Notes under the pieces: model-generated
Databases searched by the model: none
Told to the model about the DNA's origin: nothing
The model's input: the letters and a program-made list of their open reading frames with translations, nothing else
Shown: positions 1 through 19,702 of the stretch, piece after piece
Layout of the letters: every line of letters begins with the position of its first letter
Position numbering within the stretch: the first letter of the stretch is position 1
Made by a program: the position numbers and the translations under genes
Virus record (IMG/VR): IMGVR_UViG_3300037468_000381
Coordinates: 1-23,031 of that record
DNA from: a virus
Length of the DNA: 23,031 nt
Reading direction: 5' to 3' (one strand)

Positions 1-3000
1 TGACCCTACAACCGTGCTTGAACAAGGCATATCAGAAAATAATAATACGCCGCCATTTTCTGCTAATTCAACATGAGATAATAGAACATTATCAGAAGGA
101 TCTCTAAGATATACTGTGGTTGTATCTGTGCTTACATCCCATAAAGAATCACCTATAGTCCCACCGCTCACTTCAAGATAACCTATATCCCAATAAAAAT
201 CTGTGCCTAATGATGCATTAGGGACAAAAATATTACGTGCATCTATTGTATCATTTAAAGAAGCATCTAATCTTTCAATTGAAGCATCTTGAGATATGTT
301 CCAATCATATAAATAATTTATTGATCCATCATTGTTTATTCCTTGAATACCTTGTGTACCTTGAGCACCTTGTACACCTTGTATTCCTTGAAGTCCTTGT
401 GCAGGTCCTTGAATACCTTGTTCACCCATAAGACCCTGAATACCTTGAAGTCCTTGAGCTGGACCTTGAGTTCCTTGTCCACCTTGAATTCCTTGAATAC
501 TTTGTATACCTTGTTGTCCTTGAATACCTTGCGTTCCTTGTAAACCAAATGTTCCACTTACTTCAAGTAAACCACTATTCCATACAAAATATGAATCATT
601 TAAACATACATCTAAAATATATCCTGATAATAATGTACTAAAATCAATAGTATTATTAAGAGATGCTTCTATTGCATCAAGTCTACCATCTCTTACTGCC
701 AGACTTCCATCAACATATATTTTACTTACACCTCCTGTTCCACCACTTACTTCAAGATAACCTATATCCCAATAAAAATCTGTACCTAAAGAAGCATTAG
801 GAACAAATATACTATATGCATCTATTGTATCATTTAAAGAAGCATCTAATCTTTCAATTGAAGCATCTTGAGATATGTTCCAATTTATTAAATAATTTAA
901 TGAACCATCAACATAATCTTGACTTACACCTTCTCCTTGAATTCCTTGAATCCCTTGAGTTCCTTGAACCCCCTGTATTCCTTGAAGTCCTTGTGCAGGA
1001 CCTTGAATTCCTTGTTCACCTGTAAGACCTTGAATACCTTGAAGTCCTTGTGCAGGACCTTGTGTTCCTTGTCCACCTTGAATCCCTTGAACACTTTGTA
1101 TACCTTGTTGGCCTTGAATACCTTGATCACCTTGAATTCCTTGAGCTCCTTGAGTACTTTGATTACCTTGGATACCTTGAAAACCTTGTGTTCCTTGAGC
1201 ACTTTGAGATCCTTGAATACCTTGAATACCTTGATCACCTTGTTGTCCTTGGATACCTTGTGAACCCATTATACCTTGAGCACTTTGAGATCCTTGAATA
1301 CCTTGAATACCTTGAATACCTTGATCACCTTGTTGTCCTTGGATACCTTGTGAACCCATTATACCTTGAGCACTTTGAGATCCTTGAATACCTTGAATAC
1401 CTTGATCACCTTGTTGTCCTTGGATACCTTGATCTCCTTGTATACCAACAGCACCTTGAAATCCTGTTACACCTTGTTGGCCTTGTATTCCTTGAAGTCC
1501 TTGTGCAGGACCTTGAATTCCTTGTTCACCTGTAAGACCTTGAATACCTTGAAGTCCTTGTGCAGGACCTTGTGTTCCTTGTCCACCTTGAATCCCTTGA
1601 ACACTTTGTATACCTTGTTGGCCTTGAATACCTTGATCACCTTGAATTCCTTGAGCTCCTTGAGTACTTTGATTACCTTGGATACCTTGAAAACCTTGTG
1701 TTCCTTGAGCACTTTGAGATCCTTGAATACCTTGAATACCTTGATCACCTTGTTGTCCTTGGATACCTTGTGAACCCATTATACCTTGAGCACTTTGAGA
1801 TCCTTGAATACCTTGAATACCTTGAATACCTTGATCACCTTGTTGTCCTTGGATACCTTGTGAACCCATTATACCTTGAGCACTTTGAGATCCTTGAATA
1901 CCTTGAATACCTTGATCACCTTGTTGTCCTTGGATACCTTGATCTCCTTGTATACCAACAGCACCTTGAAATCCTGTTACACCTTGTTGGCCTTGTATTC
2001 CTTGAAGTCCTTGTGCAGGACCTTGAATTCCTTGTTCACCTGTAAGACCTTGAATACCTTGAAGTCCTTGTGCAGGACCTTGTGTTCCTTGTCCACCTTG
2101 AATTCCTTGAACACTTTGTATACCTTGTTGGCCTTGAATACCTTGATCACCTTGAATTCCTTGAGCTCCTTGAAGACCTTGTTGTCCTTGAATACCTTGA
2201 TATCCTTGAATACCTTGGGTTCCTTGAGCACTTTGATTACCTTGAACACCTTGAAAACCTTGAGAACCTTGTGTTCCTTGAGCGCCTTGTGTTCCTTGAG
2301 TACCTTGTCGTCCTTGAATACCTTGAACACCTTGAAAACCTTGAGAACCTTGTGTGCCTTGAACACCTTGAGTTCCTTGAATACCTTGAGTTCCTTGAGT
2401 ACCTTGTCGTCCCTGAACACCTTGAATACCTTGAGCACCTTGAGTTCCTTGAGCACCTTGAGTACCCTGAGTACCTTGTCTTCCCTGAACACCTTGAATA
2501 CCTTGAGTACCTTGTGTTCCTTGAGCACCTTGTGTTCCTTGAGCACCTTGTCGTCCTTGAACACCTTGTGTTCCTTGAGTACCTTGAGTACCTTGTGTTC
2601 CTTGAGCACCTTGTGTTCCTTGAGCACCTTGTCGTCCTTGAACGCCTTGCGTACCTTGAGTACCTTGTGTTCCTTGAGCACCTTGTGTTCCTTGAGTACC
2701 TTGTGTTCCTTGAGTACCTTGTCGGCCTTGAACGCCTTGAATACCTTGAGTTCCTTGAATACCTTGGCGTCCTTGAATACCTTGAAGCCCTTGAGCAGGC
2801 CCTTGTGTTCCTTGTCCACCTTGAAGTCCTTGAAAACTTTGTATACCTTGTTGGCCTTGAATACCTTGATCACCTTGAATTCCTTGAGTTCCTTGATTAC
2901 CTTGAATACCTTGAGCTCCTTGGATACCTTGATCTCCTTGAGTTCCTTGAATACCTTGAAGCCCTTGAGCAGGCCCTTGTGTTCCTTGTCCACCTTGAAG

Positions 3001-4854
3001 TCCTTGAAAACTTTGTATACCTTGTTGGCCTTGAATACCTTGATCACCTTGAATTCCTTGAGTTCCTTGATCACCTTTAATTCCTTGAGTTCCTTGGATA
3101 CCTTGATCTCCCTGAGCTCCCTGAGCACCTTCAGCACCTTGAAGTCCTATACTTCCATATGTTCCTTGAAGACCTTCATCTCCTTGAAATCCTTGAATTC
3201 CTTGTGCACCATCTACACCTTGAAATCCTGTTATACCTTGTTCACCTTGTGTTCCTTGAGTACCTTGAAATCCTTGAATTCCTTGTGTACCATCTACACC
3301 TTGAAATCCTGTTATACCTTGTTCACCCTGAAGTCCTTGTTCACCTTGAAGTCCTTGAGTTCCTTGTGTACCATCTACACCTTGAAATCCTGTTATACCT
3401 TGTTCACCCTGAAGTCCTTGTTCACCTTGAAGTCCTTGAGTTCCTTGTGTACCATCTACACCCTGAAATCCTGTTATACCCTGTTCACCCTGAATTCCTT
3501 GTAATCCTTGTGCTGGACCTTGAATACCTTGAAATCCCATTATACCTTGAGCTCCTTGAAGACCTTGAGCAGGACCTTGTGTTCCTTGTCCACCTTGTAA
3601 ACCTTGATGACTTTGTATTCCTTGTTCACCTTGAATACCTTGAACTCCTTGTGAACCTTCAATTCCCTGAATACCTTGAATACTTTGAATTCCTTGAATT
3701 CCTTGAAAACCTAATATTCCCTGAATTCCTTGAATACCTTGAACACTTTGAATTCCTTGAATTCCTTGAATTCCTTGAAAACCTAATATTCCCTGAATTC
3801 CTTGAATACCTTGAACACTTTGAATACCTTGAATTCCTTGAATTCCTTGAAAACCTAATATTCCCTGAATTCCTTGAATACCTTGAACACTTTGAATACC
3901 TTGAATTCCTTGAATTCCTTGATTACCAGTAATACCTTGTCTTCCTTGAGTTCCTTGAGTTCCTTGTGTTCCTTGAGAACCTTGAATTCCTTGAGTACCT
4001 TGAATTCCTAATACACCTTGTTGTCCTTGAATTCCTTGAATCCCTTGTCTACTTTGAATACCCTGTACACCCTGTACACCTTGAAATCCAGTTATACCTT
4101 GTATACCTTGAGTACCACTACCAGTGCCACCACTTACTTCAAGTAAACCTAAACTCCAATAAAAATCTGGTCCTAATGATGTTTCTTTTACGTAACCAGA
4201 AACTACATAATTTATTGATGCATTTATTCCTGCACCACTTTCAATACTATATTTATACTGTTCCCAAGTAGCACCCAATGATGCATTATACGCAACAGCA
4301 ATAAATTCTACATATGCAGTACCTGCATTACTTGGATCTACTAAATAAACTAAACCTGTTGATGGATTTAATAAAATTTGAAATGGATTTGATCCTATTA
4401 AAGAAGAATCAAAATAAATACCTACGACTTGAGAAAGATTATTATTATTAAGAATAACAGGATATTCATTACTTATTTTGTAATACGGTTTATTTATATC
4501 GATAACTTTATATCCTGGATAATTTTCAAATGGCCAAAATGTTGATGCTGTACAAGGATCTCTTAATATAGTAGTAGTATCAATAATCATTTTATACCAA
4601 TTGTAGTCTGCAGTAGTATTATTATCATACAAATTTGTATATTGATTTTTTACTGTTAAATTATCTACTACTACATTAACAAATTCTCCAGAACTTGCTT
4701 TAACTTTACCGGTCGTATTAACAGGAACTATAATTACGCCCCGTGACTCATTATAAATAACATCAAAATAGCGATGAATTTCTTGATTATTAAAATTTAT
4801 AATTCCAGGAACTTCGGGCCATGATGTTGTTAAATAGATATTTTTTAAATCCAT
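1..4854 (-). CDS. Giant collagen-like (Gly-X-Gln) phage fibre protein, C-terminus beyond the window
   Basis: Reading the minus strand from the ATG at 4854-4852, the frame stays open for 1618 codons to the left edge; I checked every codon. The next in-frame stop upstream is at 4998-4996 and no other ATG lies between, so this start is preferred. Layout: residues 1-240 form a globular, probably virion-attaching domain. Residues about 245-1310 are collagen-like triplets, nearly all Gly-X-Gln with X = I, T, A, V, L, S or E. Residues about 1311-1437 are a non-collagen segment with coiled-coil-like heptads (NISQDASIERLDASL). A second short collagen block covers about 1437-1505, and another copy of the coiled-coil module follows to the edge. 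Phage collagen-like proteins are usually trimeric tail or capsid fibres; that role here is inferred from family and location. Proline is almost absent except in twelve identical GPAQG interruptions. Transcribed divergently from the S1-domain gene. Confidence 0.9.
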   Translation of the reverse strand, partial: MDLKNIYLTTSWPEVPGIINFNNQEIHRYFDVIYNESRGVIIVPVNTTGKVKASSGEFVNVVVDNLTVKNQYTNLYDNNTTADYNWYKMIIDTTTILRDPCTASTFWPFENYPGYKVIDINKPYYKISNEYPVILNNNNLSQVVGIYFDSSLIGSNPFQILLNPSTGLVYLVDPSNAGTAYVEFIAVAYNASLGATWEQYKYSIESGAGINASINYVVSGYVKETSLGPDFYWSLGLLEVSGGTGSGTQGIQGITGFQGVQGVQGIQSRQGIQGIQGQQGVLGIQGTQGIQGSQGTQGTQGTQGRQGITGNQGIQGIQGIQSVQGIQGIQGILGFQGIQGIQGIQSVQGIQGIQGILGFQGIQGIQGIQSVQGIQGIQGILGFQGIQGIQSIQGIQGIEGSQGVQGIQGEQGIQSHQGLQGGQGTQGPAQGLQGAQGIMGFQGIQGPAQGLQGIQGEQGITGFQGVDGTQGTQGLQGEQGLQGEQGITGFQGVDGTQGTQGLQGEQGLQGEQGITGFQGVDGTQGIQGFQGTQGTQGEQGITGFQGVDGAQGIQGFQGDEGLQGTYGSIGLQGAEGAQGAQGDQGIQGTQGIKGDQGTQGIQGDQGIQGQQGIQSFQGLQGGQGTQGPAQGLQGIQGTQGDQGIQGAQGIQGNQGTQGIQGDQGIQGQQGIQSFQGLQGGQGTQGPAQGLQGIQGRQGIQGTQGIQGVQGRQGTQGTQGTQGTQGAQGTQGTQGTQGVQGRQGAQGTQGAQGTQGTQGTQGTQGVQGRQGAQGTQGAQGTQGTQGIQGVQGRQGTQGTQGAQGTQGAQGIQGVQGRQGTQGTQGIQGTQGVQGTQGSQGFQGVQGIQGRQGTQGTQGAQGTQGSQGFQGVQGNQSAQGTQGIQGYQGIQGQQGLQGAQGIQGDQGIQGQQGIQSVQGIQGGQGTQGPAQGLQGIQGLTGEQGIQGPAQGLQGIQGQQGVTGFQGAVGIQGDQGIQGQQGDQGIQGIQGSQSAQGIMGSQGIQGQQGDQGIQGIQGIQGSQSAQGIMGSQGIQGQQGDQGIQGIQGSQSAQGTQGFQGIQGNQSTQGAQGIQGDQGIQGQQGIQSVQGIQGGQGTQGPAQGLQGIQGLTGEQGIQGPAQGLQGIQGQQGVTGFQGAVGIQGDQGIQGQQGDQGIQGIQGSQSAQGIMGSQGIQGQQGDQGIQGIQGIQGSQSAQGIMGSQGIQGQQGDQGIQGIQGSQSAQGTQGFQGIQGNQSTQGAQGIQGDQGIQGQQGIQSVQGIQGGQGTQGPAQGLQGIQGLTGEQGIQGPAQGLQGIQGVQGTQGIQGIQGEGVSQDYVDGSLNYLINWNISQDASIERLDASLNDTIDAYSIFVPNASLGTDFYWDIGYLEVSGGTGGVSKIYVDGSLAVRDGRLDAIEASLNNTIDFSTLLSGYILDVCLNDSYFVWNSGLLEVSGTFGLQGTQGIQGQQGIQSIQGIQGGQGTQGPAQGLQGIQGLMGEQGIQGPAQGLQGIQGVQGAQGTQGIQGINNDGSINYLYDWNISQDASIERLDASLNDTIDARNIFVPNASLGTDFYWDIGYLEVSGGTIGDSLWDVSTDTTTVYLRDPSDNVLLSHVELAENGGVLLFSDMPCSSTVVGS
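172..335. repeat. Fibre-module repeat, copy A (coiled coil plus LEVSGG cap)
   Basis: About 165 bp, closely similar to 751-914 at an offset of 579 bp, with scattered substitutions. On the coding strand both copies give a DGS-NYL start, the heptad-like NISQDASIERLDASLNDT segment, IFVPNASLGTDFYWDIGYLEVSGG and a break. This is an older duplication of a non-collagen module inside the same fibre gene. Confidence 0.85.
751..914. repeat. Fibre-module repeat, copy B
   Basis: Partner of the copy at 172-335 (offset 579 bp). It lies just C-terminal of the long collagen block, so the module order is collagen, module, cap, collagen, module, cap. The cap motif (FYW-x-x-G-x-LEVSGG) also appears at about 4125-4185 and 545-600, each time immediately before a collagen block. 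Confidence 0.85.
974..2103. repeat. Exact 510-bp tandem duplication within the collagen-like gene (two copies plus 110 bp)
   Basis: Bases 974-1483 and 1484-1993 are identical at every position I compared. The identity continues into a third partial copy at 1994-2103, where the first difference from copy 2 is at 2104 (T against C at 1594). The unit is 170 codons, so reading frame and triplet register are kept. It contains shorter repeats of about 81-90 bp that include the GIMGSQG segment. The lack of any difference implies a very recent duplication, active homogenisation or an assembly artefact. Confidence 0.95.
2770..3071. repeat. 174-bp-spaced direct repeat in the collagen-like gene
   Basis: Bases 2770-2897 recur exactly at 2944-3071, an offset of 174 bp or 58 codons. 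Each copy begins with a GPAQGLQG interruption. This duplication is independent of the 510-bp unit and shows that the triplet region grew by repeated in-frame copying. Confidence 0.85.
3208..3500. repeat. 81-bp tandem repeat (27-residue collagen unit), about 3.5 copies
   Basis: The string ACCATCTACACC recurs at 3208, 3289, 3370 and 3451, exactly 81 bp apart. On the coding strand it gives GVDG, the only Asp-containing collagen triplet in this stretch. The surrounding unit is nine triplets long. Confidence 0.85.
3706..3921. repeat. 72-bp tandem repeat (24-residue collagen unit), three copies
   Basis: The string AAAACCTAATATTCC recurs at 3706, 3778 and 3850, exactly 72 bp apart. The encoded unit is eight triplets. 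It carries one Gly-to-Ser replacement (GIQSVQG) and one GILGFQG element per copy. Confidence 0.85.
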
Positions 4855-4989: not shown

Positions 4990-6219
4990 ATGGATTTAAA
5001 TAATCATGATAACTTCAACTGGTCAATGTATGAAGATGGGTACAACGGAAGTACTAAATTAACCCCCAATAAAGCTATCAATGGCAATTCCGAAAAAAAT
5101 AAATGTTTTTCACGTGAAATTTATGCTCAAAAACTTTTTGATATTTATACTAATCAAAATTCAGATCTAATTAAAAAAGATTTAAATAAAGGTGATGTTG
5201 TTTTTGTCACTGATATATTAAATATAAATGATACATTTATTGATATTGAAATATCAGGAGGTTTAACAGTAACAATTGATTTATTAAGAGAGAAAAAATT
5301 TATTCAAGTATTTGGATATAATACAGTTAATGAATTTATTGACTCATTACGTGAAAAAAATACAGTAAAAAAATTAATAGATAAAGGATTAAATGCATAT
5401 ATCATAGAATCTACACCTTCTGTAAAAATATCTTTATGGCAAGGACATCTCAAATCTGTAAGAGATGAATTTATGTTACAAATAGAAAATCCTACACAAG
5501 CTTATAAAGCTAAAATAATAGAAGCTAACAAAGGTGGATTTTTTGTTGAAGTTCAAGGTATAGAAGCGTTTATGCCAGGTTCATTAGCAGCACCCAATAA
5601 AATTATAGATTTTCAATCTTATATAGGGAAAGAAGTTATAGTAATGATAGAAGATTTTCTTAAAGAAATGAATTCATTTATAGTTTCACATAAAAAATAT
5701 CTTGCACATATACTTCCTATAAAAATACAAGAATTGGATACAAATAAAAAATATACAGGATTAGTTACAGGATGTTCTAAATACGGTATATTTGTAGAAT
5801 TTGAAGAATTATTTACAGGATTATTGCATACATCAAAAATGGATATAGAAACTAAAACACAATTTAATACAAGAAATGTTAAGGCAGGAGATCCTATAGA
5901 TTTTTATATCTCAGAAATAACCAAAGATAACAGAATAATACTCACTAAAGAAAGTCCTGAAGATAAATTAAGTAAAATACAAAATTTTATAATTTCTTCT
6001 AAAGATAAAGTATTAGAATCAAGTGTTGCAGCAGTAATGAATTTCGGGGTGATTGTATCTATTAGTGATAATAATTTAAACGGACTTATACCAATTTCTG
6101 AATTTAAAAAAAATAAAATAATGGTAAATAATTTTATCAACGGTGATAAAATAAATGTAATGTTTGATCAATATAAAGATGATAAAATAGTTTTTCGTTT
6201 AAGTATAGATAAAAGATAA
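4990..6219 (+). CDS. Phage protein with three S1-type RNA-binding domains
   Basis: A 409-residue protein. Three S1/OB-fold repeats are visible at about residues 168-234 (KAKIIEANKGGFFVEVQGIEAF, shortened here: GGFFVEV then AFMPGS), 252-320 (YTGLVTG-x5-GIFVEFE then GLLHTSKM) and 340-406 (VMNFGVIVSI then GLIPISEF). Residues 66-100 may be a degenerate fourth OB domain. The spacing GxV/I-x-GxFVE followed by G-x-(I/M)-(P/H)-x-S is the S1 signature. Cellular ribosomal protein S1 delivers mRNA to the 30S subunit, and S1-like genes have been reported in some very large phages. A role in favouring phage mRNAs, which here lack Shine-Dalgarno sites, is inference. It is the only gene between the divergent control region and a terminator. 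The first 60 residues are Asn-rich and unassigned. Confidence 0.85.
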   Translation: MDLNNHDNFNWSMYEDGYNGSTKLTPNKAINGNSEKNKCFSREIYAQKLFDIYTNQNSDLIKKDLNKGDVVFVTDILNINDTFIDIEISGGLTVTIDLLREKKFIQVFGYNTVNEFIDSLREKNTVKKLIDKGLNAYIIESTPSVKISLWQGHLKSVRDEFMLQIENPTQAYKAKIIEANKGGFFVEVQGIEAFMPGSLAAPNKIIDFQSYIGKEVIVMIEDFLKEMNSFIVSHKKYLAHILPIKIQELDTNKKYTGLVTGCSKYGIFVEFEELFTGLLHTSKMDIETKTQFNTRNVKAGDPIDFYISEITKDNRIILTKESPEDKLSKIQNFIISSKDKVLESSVAAVMNFGVIVSISDNNLNGLIPISEFKKNKIMVNNFINGDKINVMFDQYKDDKIVFRLSIDKR

Positions 6220-6253: not shown

Positions 6254-6269
6254 GAATATATAAAATAAA
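6254..6269 (+). promoter_or_regulatory. Putative promoter of the 6284-9229 unit
   Basis: Contains ATATATAAAATAAA (6256-6269), sharing 14 bases with the elements at 4865-4880 and 9265-9280. It lies directly after a terminator and 14 bases before the ATG at 6284, so it is placed where a new transcript would start. Confidence 0.5.
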
Positions 6270-6283
6270 TCTTTAATATTACA

Positions 6284-7714
6284 ATGAATAATAGAAAACC
6301 TCGTTCATACTCAGTACAAGAAGTACTAAATTTTTCAGACATTGGTATTGTATTCGAATTTTACTCAACAAAAGAATCAAATTTTATTGTGTCTGATCTT
6401 TCAAATCGCACATCTAAGAACATTATACTTACTAATGAAAAGAATTATGTTCCAACATATTCAAATGCTATACTTTTAAAAGAATATGAAGCAAAAAAAT
6501 CTCGCTATCAATTTTTGATAGCTTCTCAAAGTTATTATTCTATACTTCCTATTATAGATAGTGTTACTCAATGGTTATCTGAAAGTGCTGAAACTACACA
6601 TGACACAAAATTAAAAATGTCTTTGTCTTTTAATCATCGTCATCTTGAAACACTTTCATCCATTTCATTAATGAACCCTACTAGATTAGTTTTAAAATTT
6701 GATGAAAATTTTGTATACTCAAGATTTCCTGAACAAAAACATTCACCTTATGCATTATCAATTAAATCACTTACGCCAGTTGCAACTTATATAAATGAAA
6801 AAGAAATTGCAAAAAATATAGATAACATTTTAACTATGCCATCTGCCGGATATTATGGAATAGATTTTACAAATTATTCAAGGGGCATACTTGAATGTAA
6901 TTATATTGGCGGGAAAGAATATCCGAAAAAGACAAAAGAAATAAAAGAAATACTCGAATATTTCATTATTAAATCATATCAAAGTTTGAATGAAGAAAAT
7001 TATTCATTATTTGAAATTAATGAAATGAAAAGAATCACTGAAGATTTTGGAAAAATTCAAATGTCTTATATTGATCCTGAAATTTTCTTAAGAGAATTTC
7101 CTGAATTAAAAGTATATGTAGATTTAAAAACATCAACTCAAACTTTAAAAACATATTGGAGTGTTTTAAGAAAACCTTTATTTGAAATGATTTTAAATGG
7201 AAATTTAAGAAAAGGTCAATTTAATTATGATGCGCAATATGGTAGATTTCAATTAAGAAAAGCAGGAATAGGCGGAACTTTATTGAAAAATTTAGATTTT
7301 GTTAAATGTGAAATTACAGGTGTATTAGAAGGGTGTATATTTCAAGATTGCAATGTTGTTAATTCAAGAGTATATAATTCAAAATTTGTTCAAGGGAATA
7401 AAATAATAAATTCATATCTTGAAGGTGCAAGCATCAATAAACAAAATGAAGTTATTAAATCATATATAGTTAATAATGAAGAGGTTGTTAATTGTCCTGT
7501 AACAGAAAGTGTAATAAAATTTGCAACACCAGGAAAAGATCTTACATTAGATGAAAACAGTACATTGGTTGTAGGAAAACAATTACTACCAAAGAAAAGT
7601 GATGCAATCCAGATAGAAGAAATACGGGATTACACATTTATTAAAAAAATGAATAAAAAATCTGATGATACAGGATACGGAAATCTATATGATCGAAATA
7701 AATATTTAAAATAA
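6284..7714 (+). CDS. Uncharacterised 476-aa phage protein with a C-terminal beta-helix-like segment
   Basis: I do not recognise a firm family. The first 330 residues look like a mixed alpha/beta globular domain; around residue 203 the segment RGILECNYIGGKEYPKK stands out. That segment loosely recalls the strand-plus-glycine pattern of amidoligase-type (glutamine-synthetase-fold) enzymes, but no catalytic set can be confirmed by eye. Residues about 334-400 change character to short repeating strands (LDFVKCEITG, LEGCIFQDCN, VVNSRVYNS, INSYLEGAS) typical of pentapeptide-like or right-handed beta-helix structures. The basic tail ends in NLYDRNKYLK. It is the first gene after a terminator and putative promoter, and 11 bases upstream of the next gene, so it is probably co-transcribed with virion genes. 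It could be a virion protein or a modifying enzyme. Confidence 0.75.
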   Translation: MNNRKPRSYSVQEVLNFSDIGIVFEFYSTKESNFIVSDLSNRTSKNIILTNEKNYVPTYSNAILLKEYEAKKSRYQFLIASQSYYSILPIIDSVTQWLSESAETTHDTKLKMSLSFNHRHLETLSSISLMNPTRLVLKFDENFVYSRFPEQKHSPYALSIKSLTPVATYINEKEIAKNIDNILTMPSAGYYGIDFTNYSRGILECNYIGGKEYPKKTKEIKEILEYFIIKSYQSLNEENYSLFEINEMKRITEDFGKIQMSYIDPEIFLREFPELKVYVDLKTSTQTLKTYWSVLRKPLFEMILNGNLRKGQFNYDAQYGRFQLRKAGIGGTLLKNLDFVKCEITGVLEGCIFQDCNVVNSRVYNSKFVQGNKIINSYLEGASINKQNEVIKSYIVNNEEVVNCPVTESVIKFATPGKDLTLDENSTLVVGKQLLPKKSDAIQIEEIRDYTFIKKMNKKSDDTGYGNLYDRNKYLK

Positions 7715-7725
7715 TTAATACGGTA

Positions 7726-8019
7726 ATGAGAGCAAAATTAATAAATGAGAAGTTTGCTGAAGAATCTGATCCTATAAAAGATATGGGAATAGGTACGCAT
7801 AAGAATACTTTTTCTTCGCGTCCTCACATAATACCTTGGAATTCAAGAGTTGCATATTTAGGCAATGATGGAAAGGTTCATTGTGGAACATATATAAGAG
7901 ATACTATGTTTAGAGGTGAATGGTCAGCATTATCATTGTTTTTAGATCCGATATCTATAATTAATGATGATGAGCTTGGAAGAATAAAGGTAAATAAAAA
8001 TATATTAAACATATTATGA
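7726..8019 (+). CDS. Small 97-aa protein with N-terminal NEKF/SDPI tag
   Basis: The N-terminus (residues 6-23, INEKFAEESDPIKDMGIG) matches two segments of the ankyrin protein at 18944-19702. The rest (about 70 residues, including AYLGNDGKVHCGTYIRDTMF and a region rich in hydrophobic residues) has no family I recognise. The ATG at 7726 follows the previous stop by 11 bases and there is no Shine-Dalgarno sequence. The stop (TGA 8017-8019) overlaps the next start in ATGA, so translation of the two genes is probably coupled. The tag resembles a T4 capsid-targeting sequence with a possible prohead-protease cut after Glu8; this is a hypothesis. Confidence 0.8.
   Translation: MRAKLINEKFAEESDPIKDMGIGTHKNTFSSRPHIIPWNSRVAYLGNDGKVHCGTYIRDTMFRGEWSALSLFLDPISIINDDELGRIKVNKNILNIL
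7741..7794 (+). repeat. Coding DNA of the NEKF/SDPI tag in the 97-aa gene
   Basis: Encodes residues 6-23 of the 97-aa protein. It is similar at DNA level to the two minus-strand copies at 19241-19294 and 19628-19681, for example GAGAAGTT at the Glu-Lys-Phe codons and GATATGGGAAT at Asp-Met-Gly-Ile. This points to common descent rather than chance peptide similarity. Confidence 0.75.
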
Positions 8020-8750
8020 CTAGACAAGAATTAATATCGTATGTGAATGGAGAAATAACTGCAAGTTGTAGTATACCCTTTTCACTTCCAGATAAAGAAC
8101 TAGAAAGAATAATAAATTTAGAAGAAAAATGGATTTTTCGCGAATATCGAGATGCTGTTCAAAACGCATATTATGTTTTAGATAAATCTTATTATAGAAC
8201 ACAAGAATGGAGAAGTACAAGAACTTTTCAAATGCCCGAATGTGTTATGGCAATCAAATATATTTTTGAAATGACTTCAGGACAAAGAGTTTTTGGTATT
8301 CATGATCCAGATTTAACATTTGATAGATTGATGGCTGCAGATCTTTATTTAACTCCATTATCTTCAGATCAGATTACTTATCGTACAATTCAATGGAGTT
8401 TTTGGGATTTAGCAAAACAATTCAATTTAAAAGATATACAACACGGATTCAACATTAACACAAAAAGATTGATTATTTTAGGTAGAGACCCGGTTGAATC
8501 ACTTTGGGTTACAACATTAAATCAAGTTCCTAAAGAAGATTTATATGAAGATCCTGTTTTTATTAAATGGGTTATAGCAAAGGCAAAAATACAATTGGCA
8601 AGAATTATAGGTACATTTAACTATACACTTATAGGTGGAGTTCAAATAAATTACAGTGACATTAGAGCTGAAGGGCAAGAAGAATTAAAAGAACTTAAAG
8701 AAAAGATTAGAACAGATTCCCCTGCGGATTTTTTTATAATGTTTAACTAA
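8016..8750 (+). CDS. T4-like virion structural protein, possibly a neck or head-completion protein
   Basis: A 244-residue protein with no signal peptide or membrane segment. The start is fixed by the ATGA overlap with the preceding gene. Its ending has an acidic helix followed by a Gly-Gly turn and more helix: WVIAKAKIQLARIIGTF, then LIGGVQINYSDIRAEGQEEL. This recalls the GG-V-x-(L/I)-N-(G/Y) segment near the C-terminus of virion structural proteins in T4-like marine phages. The aromatic middle (RTIQWSFWDLAKQFN) has no motif I can name. The match is from memory of family style rather than a search, so neck or head-completion is a suggestion. The operon position, ahead of the baseplate genes, is compatible with a head-tail joining component. 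Confidence 0.75.
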   Translation: MTRQELISYVNGEITASCSIPFSLPDKELERIINLEEKWIFREYRDAVQNAYYVLDKSYYRTQEWRSTRTFQMPECVMAIKYIFEMTSGQRVFGIHDPDLTFDRLMAADLYLTPLSSDQITYRTIQWSFWDLAKQFNLKDIQHGFNINTKRLIILGRDPVESLWVTTLNQVPKEDLYEDPVFIKWVIAKAKIQLARIIGTFNYTLIGGVQINYSDIRAEGQEELKELKEKIRTDSPADFFIMFN

Positions 8751-8767
8751 CTGATTAATAATTATTT

Positions 8768-9229
8768 ATGAAAAGAGTTAAAGAATCTTTATACAATAAT
8801 ATAATTGATGAGTCTTTTGATAAAAGAAAAGAAGCTGAAAAAAATGCTACATATATATCTGATGATAAAAATATAGGTTTAAATAAAAAGATAATTGGTA
8901 TTGTTAATGATTCACAGGGAAATAAAGTTAAACTTTGTTTAGTTAATGGTAGTTATGTAAAATCAACTGAACCCGGTCTTGGGTTTAAAGAATTTGTAGA
9001 AGGTGGGCATCATTATGTTGATAGTTATCCAGGATATAAGAAATTTATTCCTGAAAATGAAATTTGGGTAGATGATGCATTTAAATCAAAACCTGAAGAA
9101 ATTAAAGAAATAATAGAACACGAATTCATAGAAAGAAATTTGATGAAATATAAAAACTGGAGTTATGACAAAGCACATGAATACGCAAATAAAAAAGAAG
9201 GAGAACTTCGAAAAAGATCACCAAAATAA
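8768..9229 (+). CDS. 153-aa protein with HExxER motif and tag-like N-terminus
   Basis: Residues 114-145 read IIEHEFIERNLM followed by NWSYDKAHEYANKKE. This is a His-Glu-x-x-Glu-Arg helix, then a Tyr-Asp-x-Ala-His-x-x-Ala-x-x-x-Glu helix. I recall this pair from small phage and prophage proteins of unknown function. The spaced His and Glu residues suggest a metal site of zincin type, but the classic HExxH is not present. GGHHYVDSYPG at 79-89 adds two more His. The N-terminus (MKRVKESLYNNIIDESF) is basic and amphipathic, with an I-D-E step at 13-15 loosely like the NEKF tags in neighbouring proteins. Last gene of its unit: the stop precedes a hairpin by 3 bases. The function is unproven; a protease-like role is one option. 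Confidence 0.78.
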   Translation: MKRVKESLYNNIIDESFDKRKEAEKNATYISDDKNIGLNKKIIGIVNDSQGNKVKLCLVNGSYVKSTEPGLGFKEFVEGGHHYVDSYPGYKKFIPENEIWVDDAFKSKPEEIKEIIEHEFIERNLMKYKNWSYDKAHEYANKKEGELRKRSPK

Positions 9230-18941: not shown

Positions 18942-18949
18942 ATTTACCA
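18936..18949. other. Perfect palindrome shared by two convergent stop codons
   Basis: TGGTAAATTTACCA is a 14-bp perfect inverted repeat. On the plus strand it encodes Trp-stop for the 114-aa protein, and on the minus strand it encodes Trp-stop for the ankyrin protein, with 2 bases between the two stops. No typical U-tract follows, so it is a weak terminator at best. Confidence 0.7.
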
Positions 18950-19702
18950 AGATGACTTAAATGTTTTATATCCTTTTTGTTTTAATAAATTACATAATTC
19001 ATTATGTAATGGGCCTGTCTTAGTATTCATACTATCTTTTTTAATTGGAATTTCTCTTATACTTATATAATTATAAAGATAATTATCTAATTGTTCATGA
19101 TATTTTTGTGTAATATAATAGTTATTATTATTAAAAATTATATCTTTTGGTATTTTTTTCAATTCAAGAATATCTGGTAAAAATTCTAATATAAATTTTG
19201 CCATATCTGTATAACTATCAAAATTACGATTTATATATAAACCAATTCCCATATCATGAATGGGATCTGAATCTTGAGTGAACTTCTCGTTTACGTTTTC
19301 CGTAACTTTCTTTTCTTTAGTGATATGATCTTTAATAACTTTAACTACTTCAGTGTGTCCATTATTACTTGCCCACCGTAAAGCTGCATCATTATCAGCA
19401 TGTACATCTGCACCTGCAGCTAACAATACTTTAACCACTTCAAGGTGCTCATTATTACTTGCCCATTGTAAAGGATAATCATCTCTAGTATGTACATCTG
19501 CTCCTGTAGTTAACAAGCATTCAACAAAATCTAGTTTTCCATATTTAGCACTATGAATTAAAGCATTATCTTTATCTATATACGGTTCACCTATAGATTT
19601 CATCCATAATTTTATCTGATGCATCATACCAATGTTCATATCAGCTATAGGATCTGAATCTTCAGTGAACTTCTCGTTAATATGTTCGCGTATTATTTTC
19701 AT
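18944..19702 (-). CDS. Ankyrin-repeat protein with two NEKF/SDPI tags
   Basis: A 252-residue protein. Two and a half ankyrin repeats are clear at residues about 45-127: ALIHSAKYGKLDFVECLLTTGADVH in part, PLQWASNNEHLEVVKVLLAAG and AALRWASNNGHTEVVKVI. Tag 1 lies at residues 8-25 (INEKFTEDSDPIADMNIG). Tag 2 lies in the middle at 137-154 (VNEKFTQDSDPIHDMGIG), followed by a second, unrelated 98-residue domain with helices and an Asn run. This layout looks like two tagged proteins fused head to tail. Ankyrin domains bind proteins; in phages they are rare and suggest a factor acting on host proteins (inference). It is transcribed opposite to the baseplate operon and its start is the ATG at 19702. 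Upstream, ATCATATAAAAACTAAAA is at most a weak relative of the putative late promoter. Confidence 0.85.
   Translation of the reverse strand: MKIIREHINEKFTEDSDPIADMNIGMMHQIKLWMKSIGEPYIDKDNALIHSAKYGKLDFVECLLTTGADVHTRDDYPLQWASNNEHLEVVKVLLAAGADVHADNDAALRWASNNGHTEVVKVIKDHITKEKKVTENVNEKFTQDSDPIHDMGIGLYINRNFDSYTDMAKFILEFLPDILELKKIPKDIIFNNNNYYITQKYHEQLDNYLYNYISIREIPIKKDSMNTKTGPLHNELCNLLKQKGYKTFKSSW
19241..19294 (-). repeat. Internal copy of the NEKF/SDPI tag coding DNA
   Basis: Encodes residues 137-154 of the ankyrin protein. On the plus strand, GATCTGAATCTT then AGTGAACTTCTCGTT is shared with the N-terminal copy at 19628-19681 except for a single base between the two blocks, which points to duplication within or between genes rather than convergence. 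Confidence 0.85.
19628..19681 (-). repeat. N-terminal copy of the NEKF/SDPI tag coding DNA
   Basis: Encodes residues 8-25 of the ankyrin protein and pairs with the internal copy at 19241-19294. The two are nearly identical over the Glu-Lys-Phe-Thr to Ser-Asp-Pro codons and diverge at the flanks. Confidence 0.85.

Follow-up and report, generated by a model that had tools for sequence, protein, structure and literature searches.

The window, by which we mean the whole stretch of 23,031 nucleotides analysed here, is a 23 kb IMG/VR virus fragment carrying a T4-like head-tail adaptor, gp25 and a gp6-like wedge protein. It contains three copies of a short peptide tag in two open reading frames (ORFs), and the features of interest are as follows (a slash marks a predicted cut site here and below):

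7700–7714, + strand: promoter-like 15-mer AAATATTTAAAATAA, differing from GAATATATAAAATAA at two positions, 11 bases ahead of the tagged start at 7726
7726–8019, + strand: 97-aa tagged protein starting MRAKL-INEKFAEESDPIKDMGIG, with a body 80% identical to one relative (L114)
7726–7749, + strand: putative cleavable leader MRAKLINE, of the 8-residue M[KR]A type, with a predicted cut after INE
7741–7794, + strand: tag copy 1, INEKFAEESDPIKDMGIG
8016–8750, + strand: untagged head-tail adaptor (T4-like neck), 244 aa (PHROG 211, E 8.5e-09)
8768–9229, + strand: 153-aa leader-only protein, MKRVKE/SLYNN..., without the DPI element
18944–19702, − strand: 252-aa two-tag, two-domain protein (ankyrin plus second domain) starting MKIIREH-INEKFTEDSDPIADMNIG
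19673–19702, − strand: putative cleavable leader MKIIREHINE, of the 10-residue type
19628–19681, − strand: tag copy 2, INEKFTEDSDPIADMNIG
19325–19561, − strand: ankyrin-repeat body behind tag copy 2 (Pfam Ank_2, E 1.3e-22)
19241–19294, − strand: internal tag copy 3, VNEKFTQDSDPIHDMGIG, in the same ORF, a predicted polyprotein cut site VNE/KF
18947–19240, − strand: second body domain, of a family seen behind tags in many relatives

The three copies are 18 residues long and 12 of these positions (N, E, K, F, S, D, P, I, D, M, I and G) are invariant across all of them, as the initial annotation had described with correct coordinates and sequences, and two of the three sit in one gene, ORF 18944–19702 (−), where copy 3 is placed between the ankyrin repeats and the C-terminal domain. 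Both ORF starts also read as had been claimed, with a tag near the initiator Met behind MRAKL or MKIIREH, and the bodies behind the tags are indeed unrelated, as the three window bodies do not co-cluster by BLAST. A chance origin of the copies is ruled out by the DNA pattern for DPIxDMxIG, which has three matches in the window and none in 100 dinucleotide shuffles. The body of the 97-aa protein had no Pfam or PHROG match, no orthologue without the tag was found, and AlphaFold2 returned a pLDDT of 35 from an alignment of two sequences only. The second domain of the two-tag protein was modelled confidently (81.6) and had no structural match in PDB or BFVD, and for this reason it may be a new fold. 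Relatives of the leader-only protein at 8768–9229 are either leader-only proteins themselves or the C-terminal domain of longer ORFs, and in several of them an [ILV]xE-type site lies at the border of this domain.

We found 46 relatives by means of the window head-tail adaptor. Among the matches listed in a tag scan of viral contigs, the best genome is the 405,016-base IMGVR_UViG_3300027899_000001 (hereafter G001), whose adaptor is 81% identical to that of the window and which is therefore close kin. The tag is not local to the window because G001 carries about 60 tagged ORFs, which make up some 10% of its predicted protein-coding length, and at least 118 tag-bearing stretches occur in viral contigs, nearly all on unrelated ORFs. 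Taken together, G001 and the window have 63 tagged ORFs with 87 tag copies, 26 of them internal, and the tagged bodies fall into 47 BLAST clusters including 37 singletons, in agreement with the expectation in the initial annotation that many otherwise unrelated proteins would be tagged. Three body families are repeated in this pair (15 LRR-like, 10 ankyrin-like and 10 YxxRxF, the last related to the second window domain at 18947–19240), and across the whole set we counted 203 distinct N-terminal tag copies on otherwise unrelated proteins.

The same annotation had considered that the tag might occur mainly in non-phage proteins. None were seen in 257 Gb of GTDB prokaryote genomes, which gave no match to the strict pattern (variant spellings would escape it). 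A tblastn search of INPHARED with two tag queries also gave no match, while a T4 IPIII control of equal length matched 486 records. From these searches the tag appears to be restricted to phages rather than being a general protein motif. We discarded as chance a set of gp53-like matches (NPNTIKDPIFDMKIG) in which DPIxDMxIG is found without INEKF at around residue 75 of a 100-aa ORF. Our searches of the open-access literature yielded no report of these tags.

In phage T4 the capsid-targeting sequences (CTS) of IPI, IPII, IPIII and Alt are removed by gp21. The initial annotation had noted that INE/K and VNE/K fit the T4 cleavage rule, and this holds widely, with [ILVM]-x-E preceding KF in 298 of 309 distinct copies (96%) against a background of 1.76%. 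The P1 Glu is never replaced by Asp in the 309 copies, unlike the pair of acidic residues immediately preceding S-DP, where E and D interchange freely, and some copies have insertions between the E and F of the tag. In T4, incorporation needs no more than the first 10 residues of IPIII. Targeting depends on residues 4 and 7 (Y and F in IPIII) and processing on residues 8 and 10; it fails when position 10 is Asp (PMC9026906). The equivalent of position 7 is aromatic or His in 135 of 186 N-terminal copies but in just 12 of 100 internal ones (p 4.5e-24), and in G001 alone in 38/53 and 1/23, respectively (p 2.4e-8), although these p-values overstate independence because tag copies are related by descent. 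The equivalents of positions 8 and 10 are retained in N-terminal and internal copies alike; the pattern used in the position-7 comparison itself included P1 and P3, and unselected counts gave Glu at P1 in 95–98% and I, L or V at P3 in 94–95%. As internal copies lose the position-7 residue and keep the processing residues, the multi-tag ORFs look like head-imported polyproteins, and this contrast would be expected, by analogy with T4, if the leader imports the chain and internal copies are only cut.

Several kinds of leader stand before the common second element, namely a 10-residue kind (e.g. MKLVREHINE), an 8-residue kind (e.g. MRAKFINE) and a T4 style (MTKFSAYRKWINE). An uncut tagged N-terminus reads MKLVREHINEKF, with a predicted mature start of KFxEESDPI under our model, and a full tag with leader and second element reads MKLVREHINEKFTEESDPIHDMGIG. 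MKIIREHINE is equal in length to the T4 IPIII leader MKTYQEFIAE and has M1, K2, E6, I8 and E10 in common with it. The exact cut in the 10-residue leaders is uncertain because they hold an additional [ILV]xE (V-R-E) four residues upstream. The T4-style leaders, YxxW[IL]NE before the tag in 7–8 distinct copies, have Y-x-x-W-[IL]-x-E where T4 has Y-Q-E-F-I-A-E, and so carry residues of the T4 kind at positions 4, 7, 8 and 10 (Y, W, I/L and E).

The tag therefore resembles the T4 CTS in being a short N-terminal leader on otherwise unrelated proteins (8–13 residues here compared with 10–19 in T4), with I or L at P3, Glu at P1 and an S77 protease in the close relative G001. In contrast to T4, about 60 ORFs are tagged rather than a handful, there is a conserved second element behind the cut which T4 does not need, and tags are repeated inside ORFs at domain borders. 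Most of the testable defining features of the T4 CTS thus appear in these sequences, with the exception of residue 4, where most leaders lack an aromatic residue (the equivalent position is aromatic or His in just 10 of 186 N-terminal copies). The scale, the apparent polyprotein organisation and the lineage-specific second element behind the cut go beyond T4 and are new.

A gp21-like protease gene, which the initial annotation had proposed looking for, is present in G001 as a gp21-type S77 head protease within a 781-aa ORF (306658–309003; PHROG 207, E 6e-40), the remainder of which looks like scaffold. Among 400 untagged G001 proteins this ORF is the richest in [ILV]NE (10 sites, Poisson p 1.8e-7), and two tagged ORFs (309694–310515 and 310515–310871) lie close upstream of the gene on a common strand. 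The window, as a 23 kb fragment, encodes no S77 protease itself; S77 is present in G001, G002, G012 and the window kin G029 and G037, and among the fragmentary contigs in some only. The G001 capsid protein (PHROG 138) has a candidate site, HALNE/AAMGG, near its N-terminus, and ORF 145622–146779 of G001 (L131:5622-6779, −) ends MKARTVSE/MMGAG...ASMAATTGAQMTGTSSTGSGD, so that directly behind MKARTVSE, a leader of like type, comes a repeat of the sequence with which the mature capsid protein begins (AAMGG...ASVAATTGAQFTGTTVKGSGD). We note that this tagged polyprotein turns strongly basic at its end (KKKRKTVAKKRPKK), and the product is a candidate DNA-binding core protein.

We consider it probable that the tag is a two-part address of Lak-related jumbo phages, consisting of a cleavable CTS-like leader and a retained element, by which cargo is imported, cut, packed and injected. 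In this model the leader ending [ILV]-x-E would draw the new protein into the prohead core as the T4 CTS does, the S77 (gp21-type) prohead protease would remove the leader after Glu, and the second part (KFxEESDPIxDMGIG) would remain on the mature N-terminus. In multi-tag ORFs, a single N-terminal leader would import the chain and the protease would split the domains at VNE/KF-type sites. Mature cargo would then be packaged alongside the DNA and injected; going by T4, its roles in the host would be to counter defences or to take over the cell. Of these steps, prohead entry by way of the leader and cleavage by S77 are the most likely, given the sequence data and the analogy with T4, and from the same analogy we infer the packaging and injection of the tagged proteins. 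The capsid-targeting tag suggested in the initial annotation is thus upheld as regards a T4-type cleavable leader, and is refined by the lineage-specific second element and by reading the internal copies as probable polyprotein cut sites.

The second element differs between lineages. In that of the window and G001 the element behind the cut is KFxEESDPIxDMGIG, and in G036–G038 the same slot holds S-[IL]-NFERG-x-DPK-x-[AS]M-x-IG, which keeps the spacing of F to DP and of M-x-I-G and also occurs at internal positions. In G034 the slot is occupied by D-[IV]-L-[KV]-PK-[ST]-x-EE-I in about 25 ORFs within 180 kb; the N-terminal form is [IV]YE-S[IL]xD-ILKPK[ST]xEE[IV] (L251-L259), and here too there are internal copies after [ILV]xE. 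Other genomes have leaders only, including G029 (322,902 bases, S77 present) which has leaders like MKLVKESLNE and no repeated second element, and LR756500 (an uncultured phage of 462 kb; L267-L271) which has many T4-like leaders MKYIKEYEEFILE/A without a second element. The T4-type N-termini MKYIKEYEEFILE/A were found 11 times in LR756500 compared with about 1.4 expected (p 3e-7), and several of these leaders are on LRR-like proteins. As the lineages differ in their element and some have the leader only, the leader appears to be the more widely shared and is probably the older of the two parts, with the second element as a lineage-specific addition. Our best guess for the latter is that it acts as a further signal for sorting or retention, recognised in the head or as the contents are ejected.

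The conservation of the second element might instead point to a docking tag in which the whole 25-residue N-terminus binds a phage or host receptor, such as a component of the tail, scaffold or an intracellular compartment, with no proteolysis and with multi-tag ORFs acting as multivalent ligands. We regard this as unlikely, even though F-x4-DP-x3-M-x-I-G is conserved at least as well as the leader, a ligand-like spacing is retained in the divergent lineage (NFERGxDPKxxMxIG), and AlphaFold2 gave low confidence (53–66) to the tag ahead of the well-folded second window domain, as would be seen for an exposed peptide. A docking tag leaves unexplained the retention of [ILV]xE with the exclusion of Asp, the E–F insertions, the occurrence of that same [ILV]xE ahead of dissimilar elements in lineages B and C, and the loss from internal copies of only the match to T4 residue 7. 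A docking role for the second part can, in any case, be compatible with the two-part address.

Conservation drops sharply after the I-G of the tag, and on this ground the M-G-I-G end could mark a double-glycine-like export leader, with a C39-type or other peptidase cutting behind the last Gly. This is hardly credible, as the −2 residue is Ile and not Gly or Ala, the conservation of [ILV]xE would be unexplained, and the tag is known solely from phages with T4-type heads. Within the tag itself, most synonymous positions vary at about the background level while the peptide motif is fixed, and because of this we conclude that the peptide is under selection. This synonymous variation, together with the copies inside ORFs, led us to reject a DNA-level element such as a promoter or recombination site as the main cause.

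The same observations bear on whether the tag is a genetic relic lacking any address function, either a 5' cassette of start codon and tag spread by recombination or one old family with diverged bodies. Duplication and shuffling clearly occur, because the LRR-like, ankyrin and YxxRxF families each recur many times behind tags, and the codons for P, S and the P1 E depart from background usage in a manner that fits common ancestry. However, a relic does not account for a fixed peptide motif over mostly free synonymous positions, for copies at internal domain borders, for three lineages that fill the slot with different elements, or for T4-type and other leaders that alternate on one element, and we think it very unlikely. 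The two-part address remains our preferred explanation, and it can be extended by supposing that the retained part is itself a lineage-specific code (DPIxDMGIG, NFERGxDPKxxMxIG, ILKPKSxEEI or SLFDDDD) which sorts cargo in the head or during ejection and lets strings of effectors enter as one polyprotein, to be cut in the prohead with dozens injected; for this extension we would put the chances at slightly short of even.

Links to other phage systems were also considered. One likeness is to the Lak megaphages of Prevotella, as the G001 capsid protein is 48.5% identical to that of Lak-A2 over 98% of its length, and Lak-A2 (L260-L266) repeats an [LI]xE-ending leader with SLFDDDD in about nine genes, which start MNKxIKxLLE-SLFDDDD-like when read with code 15. 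This N-terminus is a candidate Lak head-targeting tag. Neither Lak nor any record of INPHARED gave a match to DPIxDMGIG. The jumbo phages phiKZ and SPN3US are known to have head proteins in large sets, some with propeptides that a gp245-like prohead protease removes, and in SPN3US only eight head substrates were found to have N-terminal propeptides, these being mostly long (111–254 residues) (PMC5694885, PMC10052503). In contrast, our leaders are short and vary little among the many proteins, with head proteins of the T4/Lak-like type. According to a published report, the DarB targeting sequence of phage P1 can send a heterologous reporter into the head (PMC9024508); this is one described system and we found no link between it and the motif.

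Searches of family libraries with the tagged bodies returned ankyrin repeats and single weak matches only, and so no direct support for a function in host defence; ankyrin matches to bacterial effector models were set aside as generic repeat matches. Injected T4 IPs act as specific inhibitors against GmrSD restriction enzymes and have only the leader in common, and this common signal sequence has led to new IPs in T-even phages (PMC12373910). By analogy, and because T4 IPs inhibit GmrSD enzymes, a role against host defence is our first guess for the cargo. We also note that G001 167659–169563 (L132:7659-9563, −) combines a T4-type leader, a probable nicotinamide- or pantetheine-type adenylyltransferase (a call based on weak NCBIfam matches to one tagged member) and an internal tag, and that the product is a candidate injected metabolic enzyme.

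Giant phages thus appear to mark dozens of unrelated proteins with one cleavable head address label. If the tags act as in T4, the proteins that uncultured megaphages deliver can be listed from genome sequence, and the roughly 60 tagged ORFs of G001, almost all without an annotated function, become a list of candidate anti-defence or take-over proteins. If true, the tag would also be a peptide with which very large heads might be loaded with cargo, and the multi-tag ORFs an example of polyproteins processed in the head of a tailed phage.

The 15-mer GAATATATAAAATAA that is matched ahead of the 97-aa protein may be a late promoter or other 5' signal of this phage group. There are 21 exact copies in G001 compared with none in simulated sequence, mostly 2–30 bases upstream of the start codon of a tail, tagged or HNH gene, and it precedes 11 of 22 first-in-operon tagged genes but 48 of 201 untagged ones. 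The window has an exact copy at 6254–6268 and a second two-mismatch copy before gp25, the count at 2–3 mismatches being not above chance in the window, and no enrichment before tagged genes was seen for TATAAATA. Two further groups of G001 ORFs share an N-terminal word of their own, the HNH homing-endonuclease-like ORFs (YYENHHI, 11 ORFs) and the zinc-finger ORFs (ICEEC, nine ORFs), and several of these ORFs have the 15-mer upstream. Elsewhere in the window, the tail genes are adjoined by a ribosomal-protein-S1-like protein of 409 aa with three S1 RNA-binding domains (4990–6219, +; Pfam S1, E 1.3e-25), and a fibre-like ORF of more than 1,600 aa at 1–4854 (−) consists largely of collagen-like GIQG/GTQG repeats and has a counterpart of 1,751 aa in G001 at 213301.
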